Below are positions 1 to 6,103 of a stretch of 6,103 nt of DNA, piece by piece. This DNA comes from Deltaproteobacteria bacterium (lineage in GTDB: Bacteria; Myxococcota; B64-G9), in contig JAUVAM010000270.1 of assembly GCA_030591745.1 (NCBI GenBank), positions 1-6,103 on the forward strand, given 5' to 3'. How positions within the stretch are numbered: position 1 is the stretch's first letter; every line of letters starts with the position of its first letter. The notes under the pieces were generated by a model. It was given only the letters and a program-made list of their open reading frames with translations, did no database searches and had not been told where the DNA came from. The position numbers and the translations under genes were made by a program.

Positions 1-2127
1 ATGGCCAAAGAGTACTTCGGCGTGCTGCCGGCGCGTAAGACCGCGGCCGAACCCGGCATTTTAGAACCCGTACAAAAAAGCATGCGGAAGGAAGTCCTGC
101 GCATGCCCACCCAACTGCCCATCATCATCGGTGGATTCAAGACCCCCGCGGCTCGCCATCCAGACATGGCGGTACTGGAAGTCATCGACAGGATGCTGTC
201 TTCCGGGAAGAGCTCCAGGCTGCACCAGGCCCTGGTTCGCCAGCAGCGCCTGGCTGTTTTTTCGGGCTCCTGGAATCAGCGCATGCGCGATCCTGGCTTG
301 TTTCTGATCTTCGCGGGCTTCATGCCCAACCACAAGCCGGAACTAGTCGAAGCGGCCTTGTTGGCCGAGGTAAGCAAGCTTGGGAAAGAGGGACCCACAG
401 CCGCGGAATTGGCCAAGGCCAAGAAACAACTAACAGCCGAATATCAGTTCAAGCTGACCAACATGCAGCGGCTTGGATTCGAGATTGGCGACGCGGAGTT
501 GGTGGAAGGTGACTACAAGGCCTTCCTGGAAGGCGCTGATCCCTATGCCAAGATCGGGGCTGAGGATGTCAAACGGGTGGTGGCCGAACACCTGAACCAG
601 AACAAGCTGACCCTGGCGGTCTTGTTGCCGCCGGAAAGTGGCCAGGCCAAACCTGCGGCCAAACCTGAATCCAAGGCCAGCGACAAGCTCGATCTGGCCA
701 CCTGGCCCACGGCCGAACGTTTCATCAAGCTTGGCAGTCCGCCGGATGCGGCGATCCAGATGCCCAAAGTTACCGAAAAGAAGCTGGACAACGGTTTGAC
801 CCTGCTGGTCATCGAGCGTCATGAACAGCCGGTGGTTTATCTGGACTACGTGATCCGGGGTGGAAAGCAGTTCGATCCGGAGGGCAAGTCAGGTCTGGCC
901 GAGTTGGTGGCCGGCATGATTACCCAGGGCACGGCCAAGCGCACGGCCGATCAGATCGCCACGGCGGTAGACGGCCTGGGTGCCCAATTGAGCGGCTACG
1001 CCGATGACGAACGTTATGGACTTTTTGGCCGCTTTTTGGCTGCTGATTGGGCAGAAGGATTGGATCTCTTCGCCGACGTGCTTTTGCAGCCCAGCTTTCC
1101 GAAAGAGGAACTCGAAAAGATTCGTCCCCAGTACGAGGGTGGTGTTCGCCGCCTGCGTGACCAGCCCACGGCCCTGGCGAGGGAACACCTTAACTACTTG
1201 ATTTACGGTTATGGCCATCCCCGGGGAAGGCCGGTCACCCTGGCCAGCCTCAAGGCCATCGACAGCCCAGGCCTGCTGCAAGCCTACCAATCGGCTTTCA
1301 GGCCGGATGGGGCCATCATCGCGGTGACCGGCGACGTTACACCGGATGCGGTATTGGCTGATCTGGAAAAGAGCTTTGCTTCCTGGAAGACCCAGGCCTC
1401 GGTCCCTGCTTGGCCCGCGACGCCCGGCAAGCAGGATGCCCGCAAGTTGCGATTTGTCGACAAGGCGGATCTGACCCAGGCCACCATGTTTGTGGGTCAC
1501 ATGGGCATTGCTTTGAAAGATCCGGATTATTTCGCTCTCAAGCTGGGCAACTGGATTTTGGGCGGGGGCGGCTTCTCCTCGCGCATGATGAAGAGCATCC
1601 GCTCCAAAGGTGGCAAGACATACGGCGTGGGCTCCTGGGTTTCCACAGGCCTGGAGCCTGGCTCCATCGGTGCCTACACCTTTACTCGCAACTCGGAGAC
1701 AGGCGAGACCTTGAAGATGTTGCTGGATGAAATCAAGCTCATTCGCAAGGACGGCGTGACCGAAGAAGAGTTGCAGAAGGCCAAGAATGCCATGGCGGGC
1801 TCGTATCCGGTCAAGCTACAACCGCCCGGGGCCATGGGTGACGCCATCCTGGACGCGGTTTTTTACGGCTTCGGGCCTGATCGGGTGAAAAACTACAGAA
1901 AGAGCCTCGTGAAGCCCACTTTGGCAGAGGTTAACGCAGCTTTGGCCAAGCACCTGGATCCTGAGAATATGGCCATTGTGGTCGTGGGCAAGGCCGCCGA
2001 GGTGGCGTCTCAGCTCGGCGATTTCGGCAAGATGATCAAGGTGGATTATCTGGAAGCCACAGCCGACGAGGATCGCAAGCCCGCGGCCGAGGTCGAAAAG
2101 AAGCCCACCGGAGACGCCAAACCCTGA
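1..2127 (+). CDS. Tandem M16-family zinc peptidase (insulinase/PqqL-like), 5' end outside window
   Basis: This is the C-terminal 708 residues of a two-unit M16 protein. Residues 1-210 look like the second half (M16_C) of the first unit, with the typical SSRLHQALV stretch at 71-79. A linker rich in Ala, Lys and Pro covers about 213-250. Residues 254-400 form the N-terminal half of a second unit (KKLDNGLTLLVIERHEQPVV at 260-279), and about 430-665 form its C-terminal half, with GGGGFSSRMM at 521-530 and the R534/Y541 pair common in this family. The second unit has no HxxEH zinc motif: the expected site reads GLAELVAGM (298-306). In tandem M16B proteins the active motif is normally in the first unit, so it should lie upstream. 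The ATG at position 1 is therefore probably an internal Met. The protein ends in a charged Lys/Glu/Ala-rich tail (688-708). The likely role is periplasmic or envelope proteolysis. The family call is firm; the substrate is unknown. Confidence 0.9.
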   Translation: MAKEYFGVLPARKTAAEPGILEPVQKSMRKEVLRMPTQLPIIIGGFKTPAARHPDMAVLEVIDRMLSSGKSSRLHQALVRQQRLAVFSGSWNQRMRDPGLFLIFAGFMPNHKPELVEAALLAEVSKLGKEGPTAAELAKAKKQLTAEYQFKLTNMQRLGFEIGDAELVEGDYKAFLEGADPYAKIGAEDVKRVVAEHLNQNKLTLAVLLPPESGQAKPAAKPESKASDKLDLATWPTAERFIKLGSPPDAAIQMPKVTEKKLDNGLTLLVIERHEQPVVYLDYVIRGGKQFDPEGKSGLAELVAGMITQGTAKRTADQIATAVDGLGAQLSGYADDERYGLFGRFLAADWAEGLDLFADVLLQPSFPKEELEKIRPQYEGGVRRLRDQPTALAREHLNYLIYGYGHPRGRPVTLASLKAIDSPGLLQAYQSAFRPDGAIIAVTGDVTPDAVLADLEKSFASWKTQASVPAWPATPGKQDARKLRFVDKADLTQATMFVGHMGIALKDPDYFALKLGNWILGGGGFSSRMMKSIRSKGGKTYGVGSWVSTGLEPGSIGAYTFTRNSETGETLKMLLDEIKLIRKDGVTEEELQKAKNAMAGSYPVKLQPPGAMGDAILDAVFYGFGPDRVKNYRKSLVKPTLAEVNAALAKHLDPENMAIVVVGKAAEVASQLGDFGKMIKVDYLEATADEDRKPAAEVEKKPTGDAKP
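2110..2126 (+). promoter_or_regulatory. Possible Shine-Dalgarno plus CTG start for plsY
   Basis: GGAG at 2110-2113 lies 10 nt before an in-frame CTG at 2124-2126, which overlaps the TGA stop of the peptidase gene (2125-2127) as CTGA. This copies the layout of a common ATGA coupled start and would add eight residues (L-N-P-V-L-T-S-S) to PlsY. No good Shine-Dalgarno precedes the TTG at 2148. CTG starts are rare, so this stays tentative. Confidence 0.35.
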
Positions 2128-2147
2128 ATCCCGTCCTGACAAGCTCC

Positions 2148-2750
2148 TTGGCCGTCATCGCGGCCTATTTGCTGGGCTCGGTCAATTTTTCCCTGGCCGC
2201 GGCCAGCCTGGCAGGTCGAACAGCCGAGCTGCGCGCCTCGGGCTCAGGCAATCCCGGAGCCTCAAACGTGATGCGCGCCATGGGGCTGCGTTGGGCCATC
2301 CCCGTACTGCTATTAGACGTCGGCAGGGGCGCAGGGGTGGCCCTGGCCGCCACAACCTTCATCCAGGGCCCTTGGCAACCCTACGCGGTCTGCCTGAGCC
2401 TGATCCTGGGCAACCTTTTCCCCCTCTTTCACAAATTCCAAGGAGGCAAGGGCATTGCCAACAGCCTGGGCGTCTTTTTAGGCCTGGACTGGCTGGTGGC
2501 CCTCTCATCCTGCGCCATCTGGTTCGCAGTGGCCCTCCCAAGCCGCTACGCTTCGGCAGGCTCCCTGGCCATGATGCTAGCCATACCCATCGGTCTCCAT
2601 CTCCACGGAGCCCCCACCCAAGCCACAGCCTTCGGCGCCGTCATCTTCGTATTGACCCTCTTCACCCACAGAAGCAACATCAGCCGCCTCCTAAAAGGCC
2701 AAGAAAAACGCCTAAATAGTGGGACTCCCAACGGGGTGCCAGGCGAATAG
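2148..2750 (+). CDS. plsY: Acyl-phosphate:glycerol-3-phosphate acyltransferase PlsY
   Basis: PlsY is an inner-membrane enzyme that moves an acyl group from acyl-phosphate (made by PlsX) to glycerol-3-phosphate, giving lysophosphatidic acid, the first step of phospholipid synthesis. All three family motifs are visible: GSGNPGASN at 32-40, FQGGKG at 97-102, and HRSNISR at 174-180. The stretch LLLDVGRG (54-61) matches the conserved LDxxKG segment with Lys replaced by Arg. Most of the chain is hydrophobic and fits a multi-pass membrane protein, and 200 residues is a normal length. The start is TTG at 2148, since no ATG or GTG fits; a CTG at 2124 overlapping the upstream stop is an alternative. 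The last ten residues (SGTPNGVPGE) and the TAG stop come from an interspersed repeat, so the native C-terminus probably ended near RLN at 188-190. It lies 20 bp after the peptidase gene and may share its transcript. Confidence 0.93.
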   Translation: MAVIAAYLLGSVNFSLAAASLAGRTAELRASGSGNPGASNVMRAMGLRWAIPVLLLDVGRGAGVALAATTFIQGPWQPYAVCLSLILGNLFPLFHKFQGGKGIANSLGVFLGLDWLVALSSCAIWFAVALPSRYASAGSLAMMLAIPIGLHLHGAPTQATAFGAVIFVLTLFTHRSNISRLLKGQEKRLNSGTPNGVPGE

Positions 2751-2770
2751 TTGGGCGAATAGTTGGGGAG
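2711..2770 (+). repeat. Interspersed repeat, copy A, overlapping the end of plsY
   Basis: This copy contains the exact 20-mer GGTGCCAGGCGAATAGTTGG at 2735-2754. The match to copy B extends to 25 bases (2731-2755 against 4051-4075). GGCGAATAGTTG is tandemly doubled at 2742-2753 and 2754-2765. The left edge has ATAGTGGGA at 2716-2724, also present in the diverged copy at 5829-5837, so this location may join two repeat subtypes. The element supplies the last ten codons and the TAG stop of plsY. No transposase is nearby. It resembles the short repeats scattered by REP-associated transposases, but that link is inference. Confidence 0.85.
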
Positions 2771-2807
2771 TGGACGGCAGGGGAGGATTGTTCTATCCTG
2801 GAATAGC

Positions 2808-3482
2808 ATGAGAACGACGGCTCCCATCTGTCTGATCTGTTTCCTGTTGCTGGGTGGCCTTCCTGCCAAAGCGACGGGTGAAGACCTGCCCACCTTTGGC
2901 GGGCTGCGCCTTTCCTTGGGCACGGGCTTGTCCCTCTTTCCATACGCCACGGGCCAGCCGGGCAGTCTGCAACGTCAGATCGAGGCTGTGGGCATGGAGA
3001 TGCCGCTCTTCGGCGGCATCTTCGATCTGACGGTGGAATGCGAATTGCTGGGCTGGCTGGTGCTGGGTGCCGAATTCGACTACCACATCCACAGTGGGGG
3101 AAGCGCAGACGGATACAGTTCCGGCATCCGCATAAACCCGGACTTGTCCCCCGAACTGAGCTACGAGTTCCATCGCCTGTTGGGCATGGCCTTCGTGCAG
3201 GGCAACTTCATGGGCCGGCACAATGTGGGTGATTTCGAGATGGGCATTCGCATAGCGGTGGGTGTCGGCGGGCTCATCTGGAGCATGCGGGGCGAGAACG
3301 AGATGGGGCGTATCGTGGAATTTCGCCCCGGCCTGGTGGTGGGCAGCGTGCTGGGGGACTGGACCCTTCACGGGCACATCGCCTTCCCCCTGCAATGGAT
3401 CCGGGATGTGGGTCCCTATGAATTGGACTACACGGGCTTGACCGCCACCGTGTTTGAGATAAAGGTGGGCTACCGATTATGA
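2808..3482 (+). CDS. Exported protein, probable outer-membrane beta-barrel
   Basis: This 224-residue protein is not recognised as a named family. The start is ATG 2808, chosen because it opens a clear signal peptide: MRT, then a hydrophobic core at about 5-18, then a likely signal peptidase I site after A-K-A (20-22). The open frame reaches back to a TTG at 2763 inside the upstream repeat, which would bury the signal. A GGGGAGGA purine run (2780-2787) is the best ribosome-site candidate but lies about 20 nt from the ATG, so initiation may be weak. The mature chain is rich in Gly and in alternating polar/hydrophobic segments, for example GLRLSLGTGLSLF, FDLTVECELLGWLVLGAEF and MGIRIAVGVGG. It ends in EIKVGYRL, which resembles a terminal barrel strand, although the last residue is Leu rather than the usual Phe or Trp. 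It overlaps the next gene by 4 bp, so the two are probably co-translated. Confidence 0.8.
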   Translation: MRTTAPICLICFLLLGGLPAKATGEDLPTFGGLRLSLGTGLSLFPYATGQPGSLQRQIEAVGMEMPLFGGIFDLTVECELLGWLVLGAEFDYHIHSGGSADGYSSGIRINPDLSPELSYEFHRLLGMAFVQGNFMGRHNVGDFEMGIRIAVGVGGLIWSMRGENEMGRIVEFRPGLVVGSVLGDWTLHGHIAFPLQWIRDVGPYELDYTGLTATVFEIKVGYRL

Positions 3483-4027
3483 GATGGCTGACGTTGTCCC
3501 AGGCCCTGTCGGGTCTGCTGCTGCTTTCGGCCTGTCCTTGTGACAGGGGCCAGTCGGAGGTCTTCCACGAGGATTTCGAGTCCTGGTGCGAGGGGGTGCC
3601 CTGTGGCTGGGAGCTTGCGGCGGGGCAGGTGGAGCGGAGCACCAGCTACCACGCCGGTGAGCATGGAGCCCAACTCAGCGGGGGGGCCCGCCTTCTGGTG
3701 GAACTGGACGGGGTGTTGCTGGCCGCCACCGAAGATCCGGATTACCTGATCTTCATGATCCGCTGCGATCTCGAGGCTGGCCTGCGCTTCACCCTTGAGG
3801 TGGAGGGCGAGGGGGGATCCTATCCCCTCGTGGTGGAGTTGCCGGTCGGCGCGGGCTTCGGTTCGGAGATCATGCAAATGAGTGGACTGGAACTTCCAGC
3901 CCGGGAGGGGGAGCCGCCGCCGGCCCAGCCGGTCCTGCGCCTGGATTTGGAGCAGTGGGGCGAGGGCTCCTGCTTCATCGACGAGTTGCGCGTGCTCTCC
4001 GGCAACTATGTCCGCTGCATGGGTTAG
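3479..4027 (+). CDS. Small lipoprotein with possible jelly-roll (carbohydrate-binding-like) domain
   Basis: This 182-residue protein has a lipoprotein signal peptide: MRW, a hydrophobic core, and lipobox LSAC at 16-19 with Cys19 as the predicted lipidated residue. The start ATG at 3479 overlaps the previous stop as ATGA, with AAGGTGG at 3462-3468 as a plausible ribosome site. After the anchor come EDFESW at 31-36, GWEL at 43-46 and a late SCFIDELRV at 164-172. This order (opening aspartate-phenylalanine strand, closing Ile-Asp-x-Leu/Val strand) is typical of jelly-roll domains such as carbohydrate-binding modules or MAM-like folds in secreted proteins. I cannot assign a family. Cysteines at 37, 42, 96, 165 and 180 could form disulfides. 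Overlap with the preceding probable barrel gene suggests a two-protein envelope unit. Repeat copy B starts directly after the stop. Confidence 0.8.
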   Translation: MRWLTLSQALSGLLLLSACPCDRGQSEVFHEDFESWCEGVPCGWELAAGQVERSTSYHAGEHGAQLSGGARLLVELDGVLLAATEDPDYLIFMIRCDLEAGLRFTLEVEGEGGSYPLVVELPVGAGFGSEIMQMSGLELPAREGEPPPAQPVLRLDLEQWGEGSCFIDELRVLSGNYVRCMG

Positions 4028-4056
4028 CCCGGGGACGGGGTGCCCCCGGGACGGGG
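4028..4056 (+). other. GC hairpin and overlapping G-quadruplex motif in the convergent gap
   Basis: CCCGGGG at 4028-4034 is perfectly complementary to CCCCGGG at 4044-4050, giving a 7-bp stem with a 9-nt loop. The same bases form four G-runs (4031-4034, 4037-4040, 4048-4050, 4053-4056) with loops of 2, 7 and 2 nt, which fits the canonical G3+N1-7 rule. It lies between the ends of convergent genes and may slow or end transcription, but no T-tract follows, so it is not a standard intrinsic terminator. Confidence 0.45.
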
Positions 4057-4076
4057 TGCCAGGCGAATAGTTGGGG
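4029..4076 (+). repeat. Interspersed repeat, copy B, between convergent genes
   Basis: The exact 20-mer shared by all copies lies at 4055-4074. Upstream of it a 16-bp unit is tandemly doubled with one mismatch: CCGGGGACGGGGTGCC at 4029-4044 and CCCGGGACGGGGTGCC at 4045-4060. The element fills almost the whole gap between the lipoprotein stop (4027) and the end of the minus-strand gene (4079). It is in the same orientation as the other copies. Confidence 0.85.
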
Positions 4077-4078
4077 CT

Positions 4079-5770
4079 CTAGAAGACCGCGATTCTTGAG
4101 CAGCAGCATTGGATGAAAGGCCGACCCGCCTCTGCGCAAGCGTTGAAGGACACATCGCAGGAGGAGAGAGGGGTCCAATCGTCGTTCGTCGGCCATTGCT
4201 GTGTTGGAAAACATCGGCCGACTAGTGTTTGGCCTTCTACGATGCACAAGGCCTCGCAGTCCTCCGTCGGTTCCATGTAGTCGCGGCAGTACTCCGTGCA
4301 ATTGGTGGCTGGCACTGCTCCCGAGTCGAAGGTGGGCCACAAATCGACGATGGTATGGCTCGTGACCAGGCTTTGTCGCATCACGTTCAGATCGGCGTCG
4401 AGATAGTCGACCTTTTTCTCCAGGACCTGATTGTCATTGGGAAAGTAGTACAGGGCCTCGATGTCCGCGACCGGTTCGTCGAACACCACCAGGAACCGGT
4501 CGAACCAGTTGTGCTGGCCGTCAACGAAGGCGAGCCGGAAAGGATCTTCCACCAGACGATGTTCCTGTCCCAGCTGAAAACTCGCCCGCACCAGGGCCGT
4601 GGGACAGGCATGGATGCACTCATCGGACGAGTAATAGCGTTCCTCCAGCACGAGATCAGCACCATCAGCGGTTTGGACCCGGTGGAGGACAGGCAGGTAG
4701 AGGTCATGGCGGCAAGTGAGAAAATACCAGCGCTCAAATTCCTCACGGTCCACGGTGAGTTCGAGCGTGCTGTCGGGATAGGTGAGGGGTGGTGAGAGGT
4801 AAAGCTCGTCGAAGATCCTCAGACGATCATCCGGGGCGCTCGGGTCGAATTCGATCTTGTAGGTGAGCGTGTAGCTCATGGTGCCGTCCGAGAAGGTCTG
4901 GACGAACTCGTATTCGTCCCGGTCGGCCAAGGAGATTAGCGTGAAGTATCCGCTGGTTAGGGTATCAAGAAGCACACGGTCGGGCCCGAACTCGACCGAG
5001 GCTATCCAGTCACGCTCGAAGGAGGGTTCGTTTTTGGGCAAGGAAACCACACCGTCGCGGAAAGTGACCCGCATCCTGGTCTGGTAAGCACCAAATACGT
5101 CCCAGCTCGAGCTCTTGTCAGTGCATACTCGCGTGCCGGCCGGGATCACCAGGGCGTAGTCCTCGCCCAGGTCGAGGCAGACGCCCTGAACACAGCCGTC
5201 GGGGCATGTCCGTTCCGACCGCTCATAGTCACAACGACCGCTGCTCGCTTCGCAGGTGCCAGCCGAATCGTATTCCTCGACGGTGGAGTCATCAAGGCAT
5301 CTAGCGGGAGGCGGATCGTCACAGACGACACCCTCGCACAGGTCTTCGCCAACGCAGCGATTATCCTCACATCCCGTCGAGCATGCCCGGTCAGTGAAGC
5401 CATAGTCACAAATGCCGTCGGCCTGGCCGCAAACCCCCCAAGTCTCGAAAATCCTAAGCGTCAACGCGTCGACGCACTGATTGTCCGGCGGCTCATCACA
5501 GACCACGCCAGCGCAGGGGTCAACGGAATCGCAGCGCCCCTCCAAGCAGCCCTGATCGCACACAATATCGCTATGTCCGTACACGCAGGCGTCGGTGTCC
5601 GGGTCGCAGGAGCCCTGCGAGTCGTAAGTTCTGAGGGTGTCGGCGTCGGCGCAAATGTTTGCTGGCGGCTGCACGCATTCGGTGTCGATGCAGTCCAAAT
5701 CGTCTCCGTCCGTACATCCGATCACCATCAACAAGGCCAGGAGACAGGTCATCACATTGGAAAATCTCAT
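4079..5770 (-). CDS. Large surface lipoprotein with three 8-cysteine repeats
   Basis: This 563-residue protein is of unknown function. The start is the ATG whose first base is 5770, because a perfect AGGAGG (5782-5777) sits 6 nt before it; the longer start at 5785 would contain that ribosome site within its own codons. The signal peptide ends in lipobox VIGC (16-19), with Cys19 predicted to be lipidated. Residues 27-198 hold three cysteine-rich repeats of exactly 59 residues period. Residues 205-480 form a domain I do not recognise. It is rich in acidic and aromatic residues, with likely beta strands and few cysteines (216, 353, 385, 389). The last 73 residues carry ten cysteines (491, 495, 505, 509, 520, 538, 545 and 555-557). 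The overall style matches cell-surface proteins of Myxococcota and relatives, in which repeats of the form CxGVxCxxPPxxxC are common. It is probably disulfide-bonded and exposed at the outer membrane. The stop codon lies 2 bp beyond repeat copy B. Confidence 0.9.
   Translation of the reverse strand: MRFSNVMTCLLALLMVIGCTDGDDLDCIDTECVQPPANICADADTLRTYDSQGSCDPDTDACVYGHSDIVCDQGCLEGRCDSVDPCAGVVCDEPPDNQCVDALTLRIFETWGVCGQADGICDYGFTDRACSTGCEDNRCVGEDLCEGVVCDDPPPARCLDDSTVEEYDSAGTCEASSGRCDYERSERTCPDGCVQGVCLDLGEDYALVIPAGTRVCTDKSSSWDVFGAYQTRMRVTFRDGVVSLPKNEPSFERDWIASVEFGPDRVLLDTLTSGYFTLISLADRDEYEFVQTFSDGTMSYTLTYKIEFDPSAPDDRLRIFDELYLSPPLTYPDSTLELTVDREEFERWYFLTCRHDLYLPVLHRVQTADGADLVLEERYYSSDECIHACPTALVRASFQLGQEHRLVEDPFRLAFVDGQHNWFDRFLVVFDEPVADIEALYYFPNDNQVLEKKVDYLDADLNVMRQSLVTSHTIVDLWPTFDSGAVPATNCTEYCRDYMEPTEDCEALCIVEGQTLVGRCFPTQQWPTNDDWTPLSSCDVSFNACAEAGRPFIQCCCSRIAVF
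5177..5692 (-). repeat. Three 59-residue, 8-cysteine protein repeats inside the lipoprotein
   Basis: Repeat 1 covers residues 27-80, repeat 2 covers 86-139, and repeat 3 covers 145-198 (genome 5692-5531, 5515-5354, 5338-5177). All three share the identical cysteine spacing C-x4-C-x7-C-x14-C-x6-C-x8-C-x3-C-x4-C. Shared residues include PP after the second Cys, T-L/V-x-x-Y/F-x-x-x-G-x-C in the middle, C-x-Y after the fifth Cys, and GC-x4-C at the end. Repeats 2 and 3 also share C-x-GVVCD. An even number of cysteines per unit fits four internal disulfides. Confidence 0.9.
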
Positions 5771-5776
5771 AGCTTT

Positions 5777-5782
5777 CCTCCT
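5777..5782 (-). promoter_or_regulatory. Strong Shine-Dalgarno that fixes the lipoprotein start
   Basis: The minus strand reads ATGAGGAGGAAAGCTATGAG. AGGAGG is followed by six bases and then the ATG at 5770. The upstream ATG (5785) overlaps the site and has no purine-rich site of its own at the right distance, so the downstream ATG is preferred. Confidence 0.85.
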
Positions 5783-5794
5783 CATAATCGTCTC

Positions 5795-5838
5795 GCCTTC
5801 AAGGTGCCGCCTTCAAGGTGCCAGCCACATAGTGGGAG
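5795..5838 (+). repeat. Tandem 14-mer and diverged repeat copy in the lipoprotein leader
   Basis: GCCTTCAAGGTGCC occurs twice back to back at 5795-5808 and 5809-5822. The second copy runs into GGTGCCAGCCACATAGTGGG (5817-5836), which matches the main 20-mer at 16 of 20 positions. ATAGTGGGA (5829-5837) recurs at 2716-2724 in copy A. The element would lie in the 5' untranslated region of the lipoprotein gene. Confidence 0.75.
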
Positions 5839-5844
5839 GGTGGA

Positions 5845-5853
5845 ATCATAACA
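5845..5853 (-). promoter_or_regulatory. Possible extended -10 promoter for the lipoprotein gene
   Basis: The minus strand reads TGTTATGAT, a TGn extended -10 with the hexamer TATGAT. It lies about 75 bp upstream of the ATG, between two repeat copies. No convincing -35 hexamer is visible at the usual distance. If used, the leader RNA would contain the tandem 14-mers. The evidence is a single short motif. Confidence 0.3.
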
Positions 5854-5868
5854 CAGGCTGCAAATCGA

Positions 5869-5890
5869 GGTGCCAGGCGAATAGTTGGAG
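5869..5890 (+). repeat. Interspersed repeat, copy C
   Basis: The exact 20-mer GGTGCCAGGCGAATAGTTGG lies at 5869-5888, followed by AG. It has the same orientation as copies A and B, but the sequence to its left differs (TCGA in place of ACGG). It sits 22 bp beyond the stop of the rightmost minus-strand gene. Confidence 0.85.
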
Positions 5891-5910
5891 GCTGAACTGG
5901 CAAGGCCCCT

Positions 5911-6103
5911 TCATTCGGGTTGGCGATAAACCGGATCTTGCCGTTTCTTGATATCGAAAGGAATGCGGGGGGATGCGATGTGGCCGTTCCATACATCTTT
6001 TTCGCCTTCCACCCGGTAGCTCGCTTCTAGCCAATAGCACCCGTAAGGGATGAGTCGCTTGCCGTTGATTTGCCGCAAGGCCCAGGTCTGGAGATTGACC
6101 TGG
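5911..6103 (-). CDS. C-terminal end of an unidentified protein, probable beta-sandwich tail (5' part outside window)
   Basis: The minus strand is open from the window edge to a TGA at 5913-5911, giving the last 63 residues of a protein. The pattern includes LQTWALRQINGKRLIPYG, then CYWLEASYRV, then WNGHIASPRIPFDI. A Gly-Lys turn leading to a Pro-Tyr-Gly-x-Tyr strand, and a closing W-x-G-x-I-x-S...I-x-F strand pair, is what Ig-like or BsuPI-like beta-sandwich domains show at their C-termini. The fold call is from pattern only. A second minus frame is also open here (window end to 5846), but its product is rich in Arg, Pro and Ser and looks like a shadow. This gene is on the same strand as the Cys-repeat lipoprotein gene, 140 bp upstream of its start, and may be transcribed with it. 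Confidence 0.6.
   Translation of the reverse strand, partial: QVNLQTWALRQINGKRLIPYGCYWLEASYRVEGEKDVWNGHIASPRIPFDIKKRQDPVYRQPE

Follow-up and report, generated by a model that had tools for sequence, protein, structure and literature searches.

The closest described counterparts of the repeat studied here are the repetitive extragenic palindromes (REPs) and their REP-associated tyrosine transposases (RAYTs, or TnpA_REP). The repeat, GGTGCCAGGCGAATAGTTGG, is a 20-mer that occurs three times in a window of 6,103 nucleotides from a Deltaproteobacteria bacterium (assembly GCA_030591745.1, contig JAUVAM010000270.1, positions 1 to 6,103). RAYT-type enzymes cut single strands and form a phosphotyrosine link according to the available text of PMC6006769, and priming of synthesis by the free 3'-OH was proposed for RAYTs in the available text of PMC2817692. 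Judged by the same portions of the two papers, the present system is like RAYTs and REPs in having an HUH-Tyr enzyme with the same predicted fold, a motif beside the enzyme genes and dispersed intergenic copies. It is unlike them in that the enzyme class is multi-copy in the related metagenome-assembled genome AB_03_Bin_195 of a Deltaproteobacteria bacterium (G001 below) and in that the window repeat is not palindromic.

In TIRYTs (TIRtrons), likewise, RAYT-like genes have inverted terminal sequences, and these are also found as dispersed repeats (PMC3733652, accessible part). GGGGWSAS is common to many, not all, of their terminal inverted repeats, whereas the ends of the transposase class found here (A1) read GGTGCCA with a GGTGYC^A tip and do not carry GGGGWSAS. 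As far as the accessible part goes, TIRYTs belong largely to subclass 2.1 with a C-terminal helix-turn-helix, while the A1-class homologues list only PF01797 among precomputed Pfam assignments. REPIN and BIME clusters (PMC3116915, in part) resemble a second family described below, in which the copies are mostly paired, hairpin-forming units of about 52 bp. Known tandem clusters repeat whole REPs or REPINs with flanking DNA, in the accessible parts of PMC3733652 and PMC3116915; here, in contrast, the repetition is confined to one side of an internal point, and the window family is unpaired, a TGGCACC partner within 110 nt being found at 0 of 28 strict copies. Compared with IS200/IS605 elements (IS608, ISDra2) there is no strong sequence match, the best IS200/IS605 profile giving E 0.0037, and several G001 loci differ from them in having inverted terminal sequences on both sides. 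Duplications anchored inside a repeat, on one side of an internal point, were not found described in the literature searched, which included the accessible parts of PMC3733652, PMC6006769, PMC3116915, PMC3686654, PMC2817692 and PMC11708052; subscription literature was mostly outside its scope and priority is not established.

The 20-mer is probably the greater part of a dispersed element of about 23 bases, CNRGGTGCCAGSCGAATAGTTGG, related to the ends of RAYT-class Y1 (HUH) transposase genes, and the comparisons below favour a model in which the transposase nicks at GGTGYC^A and faulty repair or rejoining there duplicates DNA.

Copies of the repeat in the window

The exact 20-mer is found at 2735-2754, 4055-4074 and 5869-5888, always on the + strand, and a 16/20 relative, GGTGCCAGCCACATAGTGGG, at 5817-5836. 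These positions agree with the initial annotation, as does a 25-base identity between the first two copies (2731-2755 and 4051-4075), and its view that three identical 20-mers in one orientation are not due to chance is borne out by 200 dinucleotide shuffles, which gave 0 matches at three or fewer mismatches. With the extent of the conserved block taken from 26 strict copies, copy 1 covers 2732-2754, copy 2 covers 4052-4074, copy 3, the relative with its CNR, covers 5814-5836 and copy 4 covers 5866-5888. The putative cuts fall at 2740/2741, 4060/4061 and 5822/5823 in copies 1, 2 and 3, respectively.

Three of the four copies contain internal short tandem duplications, which had gone unnoticed in the initial annotation. 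Copy 1 has a duplication of the 3' type (2742-2765), where GGCGAATAGTTG occurs twice without mismatch (2742-2753 and 2754-2765). Copy 3 has one of the 5' type, an exact doubling of GCCTTCAAGGTGCC at 5795-5822. The duplication of copy 2, also of the 5' type, consists of two 16-base units ending in GGTGCC (4029-4060); because these are only 94% alike it was left out of the counts of exact duplications. Copy 4 is without duplication.

The window and G001 differ at these very places. The orthologue of copy 1 lacks 12 bp and that of copy 3 lacks 14 bp, in both cases in nearly identical surroundings; the 20-mer of copy 3 itself recurs unchanged at the corresponding position of G001. Both sequences have a duplication at copy 2, each with a unit of its own. 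Opposite copy 4, G001 carries two copies plus an additional block, with the aligned junction at CCA^GG, although its placement is ambiguous because of homology.

Distribution of the family

When the genome collection was scanned with GGTGCCAGSCRMATAGTKGG, eight stretches were found, five from AB_03_Bin_195 and one each from CSMAG_234, Arthrobacter and Oceanobacter. The Arthrobacter (L001) and Oceanobacter (L006) stretches, with one isolated match each, were set aside as probable chance. Two of the G001 stretches are syntenic with the window (89.8% identity over 4222 bp and 91.3% over 1819 bp), and the window is therefore from a close relative of G001. The expected dispersed family of more than three copies is present: G001 has 26 places with at most two mismatches to the exact 20-mer (reversed control 0) and 38 with at most two mismatches to GGTGCCAGSCRMATAGTKGG (reversed control 1). 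At this limit the 20-mer occurs once each in G002 and G003 and is absent from the other six of the nine genomes in the class of G001.

The block conserved over the 26 strict copies is CNRGGTGCCAGSCGAATAGTTGG, outside which conservation falls almost to background, apart from a few positions weakly enriched in G or A. Looser subfamilies, for example GGTGCCATATGAACAGTAGG and GGTGCCAGCCACTTCGTAGG, were also found. Viral contigs gave no match to the degenerate pattern, Rfam gave none to the repeat at gathering scores, and a literature search with the first ten bases of the repeat returned unrelated work only.

Duplications anchored at a fixed point

Duplications were counted near 60 copies within two mismatches of eight consensus strings, which were written after viewing 83 matches to a loose regular expression. 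The regions comprised 37 of the 38 G001 places with GGTGCCAGSCRMATAGTKGG (C151 omitted) and places among the looser-pattern matches listed; as the looser pattern is not specific (240 matches in G001, 146 in the reversed control) it served only for picking places.

Many copies show one of two layouts, either (X-GGTGCC) twice followed by AGGCGAATAGTTGG, or A followed by (GGCGAATAGTTGG-Y) twice. Of the 44 exact tandem duplications with a period of 8-25 near the copies, 22 end at GGTGC^C or GGTGCC^A and nine start at CCA^GG. An anchored exact duplication was present in 25 of the 60 copies, and in 13 of the 28 strict ones, with the other boundary variable. There are 22 different duplicated units, two pairs of which, from neighbouring copies, are nearly alike. 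Since members of one array are not independent in these counts, estimates of significance are only rough. For comparison, 21.9 kb of intergenic DNA away from the copies contained 19 duplications, some of which are arrays at RAYT right ends. That one breakpoint is fixed while its partner varies suggests breakage at a specific site, and the fixed internal breakpoint probably marks the cut site of the enzyme.

The RAYT-class transposase genes

RAYT class was scored for at most ten candidates per genome. The A1-class enzymes have a predicted Y1 HUH fold with conserved HUH and Tyr, while the curated REP_Tyr_transpos model NF047646 gave 54.3, 46.5 and 40.4 bits, below its cut-off of 80. They do not occur as one copy per genome and repeat type, the pattern described for RAYTs, L053 and L057 of G001 being 88% and 92% identical to L055. 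A motif related to the window repeat lies upstream in six of the eight A1-class RAYT loci of G001. Inverted GTGC arrays are found downstream in L053, L055 and L057, not in all loci; their units end in GTGC on the opposite strand and are separated by linkers of varying length.

The flanks of the nine full-length A1-class genes of G001 and G002 (fragments L059, L060 and L048 omitted) held 31 duplications in 10.4 kb, at seven of the nine loci, compared with ten in 14.0 kb, at seven of 13 loci, for other Y1 genes. Upstream of three of these other genes in G001 (L047, L049 and L051) a duplication ends exactly at a GGGG^AC tip or a single base away, which resembles the anchoring at GGTGYC^A.

A second family in larger genomes

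All of eight genomes of 12-14 Mb from the phylum that have A1-class genes carry GGTGTCARACGAWTCGTAGG within one mismatch, with 12, 51, 3, 8, 6, 22, 43 and 37 copies per genome (reversed control 0). The sample analysed comprised 102 distinct copies of the 182 counted at this tighter limit of one mismatch. A duplication ending GGTGTC^ was found at 26 of the 102 distinct left ends, and its mirror image at 13 of 70 distinct right ends. Of the 102 copies, 75 have a GACACC partner no more than 110 nt away, mostly giving a unit of 52 bp overall, and one such paired unit folds at -37.6 kcal/mol. X is conserved within subfamilies and the duplicated unit is therefore the outermost 12-15 bases of the element.

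The notion that X is private target DNA was dropped in view of this conservation and of the base three before GGTGCC in the window family, which is C in 26 of 26. A match between left and right X within a copy was not supported in the second family (3.68 of 8 bases, 3.63 in shuffled pairs). Pairing of X with GG as a hairpin, and of the left with the right flank, are by-eye impressions only. At one locus (L203, G092:C66:349000-357000) the DNA pieces that GGTGTC copies delimit have their matches, of 95-97%, at separate places in G091 and G093, as though rearranged pieces were bordered by the copies.

Genomic position of the copies

Of the 60 copies, 45 are intergenic, eight lie within called genes and seven at contig or locus edges, by an approximate hexamer-based gene caller of our own. 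The caller errs near contig ends: it put L073 141 inside a gene, although this copy is orthologous to the intergenic copy 2 of the window. Among the 53 copies that could be placed, 45 are thus intergenic, compared with 16% of points chosen at random. The nearest boundary of the 45 is a stop for 29 and a start for 16 (308 and 341, respectively, for random intergenic points), and the arrangement is tandem-same in ten cases, tandem-opposite in 16, convergent in ten and divergent in nine. The copies thus prefer intergenic DNA, slightly favour stops and keep to no particular strand, and the proposal that the repeat marks gene ends in one orientation is not supported.

In the window itself, proximity to a stop codon is confirmed for the three exact copies, which contain the stop or lie 4 to 27 bp from one. 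Copy 1 ends an open reading frame (ORF) for a PlsY-type glycerol-3-phosphate acyltransferase (2148-2750, + strand; PF02660, E 1.5e-40), supplying its last codons and TAG stop (2748-2750) in the window as in G001. Copy 2 (4055) begins 27 bp past a stop ending at 4027 and lies 4 bp from the stop of a - strand ORF at 4079, and copy 4 (5869) is 22 bp distant from a stop at 5911. The relative at 5817 does not fit, its nearest stop being 74 bp away.

The - strand ORF (4079-5785), between copies 2 and 3, encodes a Cys-rich product of 568 amino acids without a Pfam match and with repeated CAGVVCDEPP-like segments. It also contains a 15/20 relative of the repeat, GGTGCCAGCCGAATCGTATT, at 5255-5274, shared by the G001 orthologue and absent from the initial annotation, which may be chance or an old insertion.

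Discussion

The copies are extragenic as REPs are. The core folds at only -1.8 kcal/mol, in agreement with the remark that it is not an obvious palindrome, and the copies carry GTTG in place of GTAG, a tag that the GGTGTC family and several of the RAYT ends in G001 do have. Because palindrome and GTAG were looked for and are lacking, the window repeat was not filed as a REP. Its association and its genomic pattern resemble those of a RAYT-linked repeat. The earlier suggestion of a REP/RAYT family is thus supported as regards related motifs beside RAYT-class Y1 genes and fails as regards a classical REP, and the earlier reading of the window repeats as a whole is partly supported.

In the proposed mechanism, in which both the equation of the fixed breakpoint with the cut and the route to the duplications are inferred, single-stranded DNA would be nicked by the transposase at GGTGYC^A, so that GGTGYC would end in a 3'-OH while the enzyme would stay attached to the 5' end at A. 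The 3'-OH would slip back 8-19 bases and re-prime or, alternatively, the cut end would be rejoined to a second nick. The stretch that becomes duplicated would be either the outer one, X-GGTGCC, or the inner one, GGCGAATAGTTGG-Y. With the 5' end blocked at A, synthesis templated by the other strand may halt a base early, which fits the start of the 3' type after A.

Junctions of the 5' type mostly share at least one base (21/22 in the window family and 21/26 in the second family), which fits slip-back re-priming. It also speaks for a rival view, in which the elements are RAYT-related but short direct repeats (CC...CC, GG...GG) gave rise to the duplications through plain slippage during replication, unconnected with the enzyme. 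The ten duplications in the flanks of other Y1 genes also speak for slippage. We nevertheless regard it as unlikely, as 22 of 44 duplications end within a two-base stretch of the element and nine start at a single base, the same point recurs in the second family and at mirrored right ends, and the strictly 3'-type cases start at the same base in 9/9, several without a shared base. The intergenic bias and the 29 of 45 copies nearest a stop would suit a 3'-end element with a regulatory or terminator-like role that selection maintains at gene ends, but free orientation, nine copies in divergent regions, the lack of a stable hairpin or Rfam match and the related ends adjoining transposase genes make this very improbable. 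A target-site duplication, generated a single time on insertion, is a scarcely credible origin of the repeated X-GGTGCC: units of 8-19 bp have a suitable size and X differs between copies, but the two units are found on the same side of the element, subfamilies of the second family have a conserved X, and orthologous copies already present in both genomes differ in their duplications.

Several observations weigh against duplication by the transposase at the repeat. The G001 RAYT ends agree with the window 20-mer at only about 16 of 20 bases. The motif was not found at two A1-class loci of G001 (L060 and L062), nor flank duplications at L062 and L050. No anchored exact duplication is present in 35 of the 60 copies, and 13 of the 44 duplications are away from the anchor points, although several of these form outer units of the same arrays. 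The 3'-type start sits one base past the 5'-type end, and the 3' type was seen in 1 of 102 second-family copies. Empty sites were not found in DNA searches, in which matches were split and repeat-rich.

More generally, Y1/HUH transposases of the A1 class might leave a readable scar, short local duplications anchored at the cleavage point GGTGYC^A; on the present comparisons we advance this tentatively. The scar may be general to Y1 elements, given the GGGG^AC duplications at L047, L049 and L051. If the scar is real, cleavage sites would be readable from genomes alone, and gene borders across the phylum would keep gaining small indels. RAYTs are widespread and their cellular role is unsettled, and a base-exact hotspot of duplication, which occurs in two related repeat families and differs between sister genomes, would be a natural record of enzyme action. 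It would directly test the 2010 proposal of a priming 3'-OH left by RAYT cleavage (PMC2817692, available text), and would show a way in which a non-palindromic unit of about 23 bases keeps altering gene borders.
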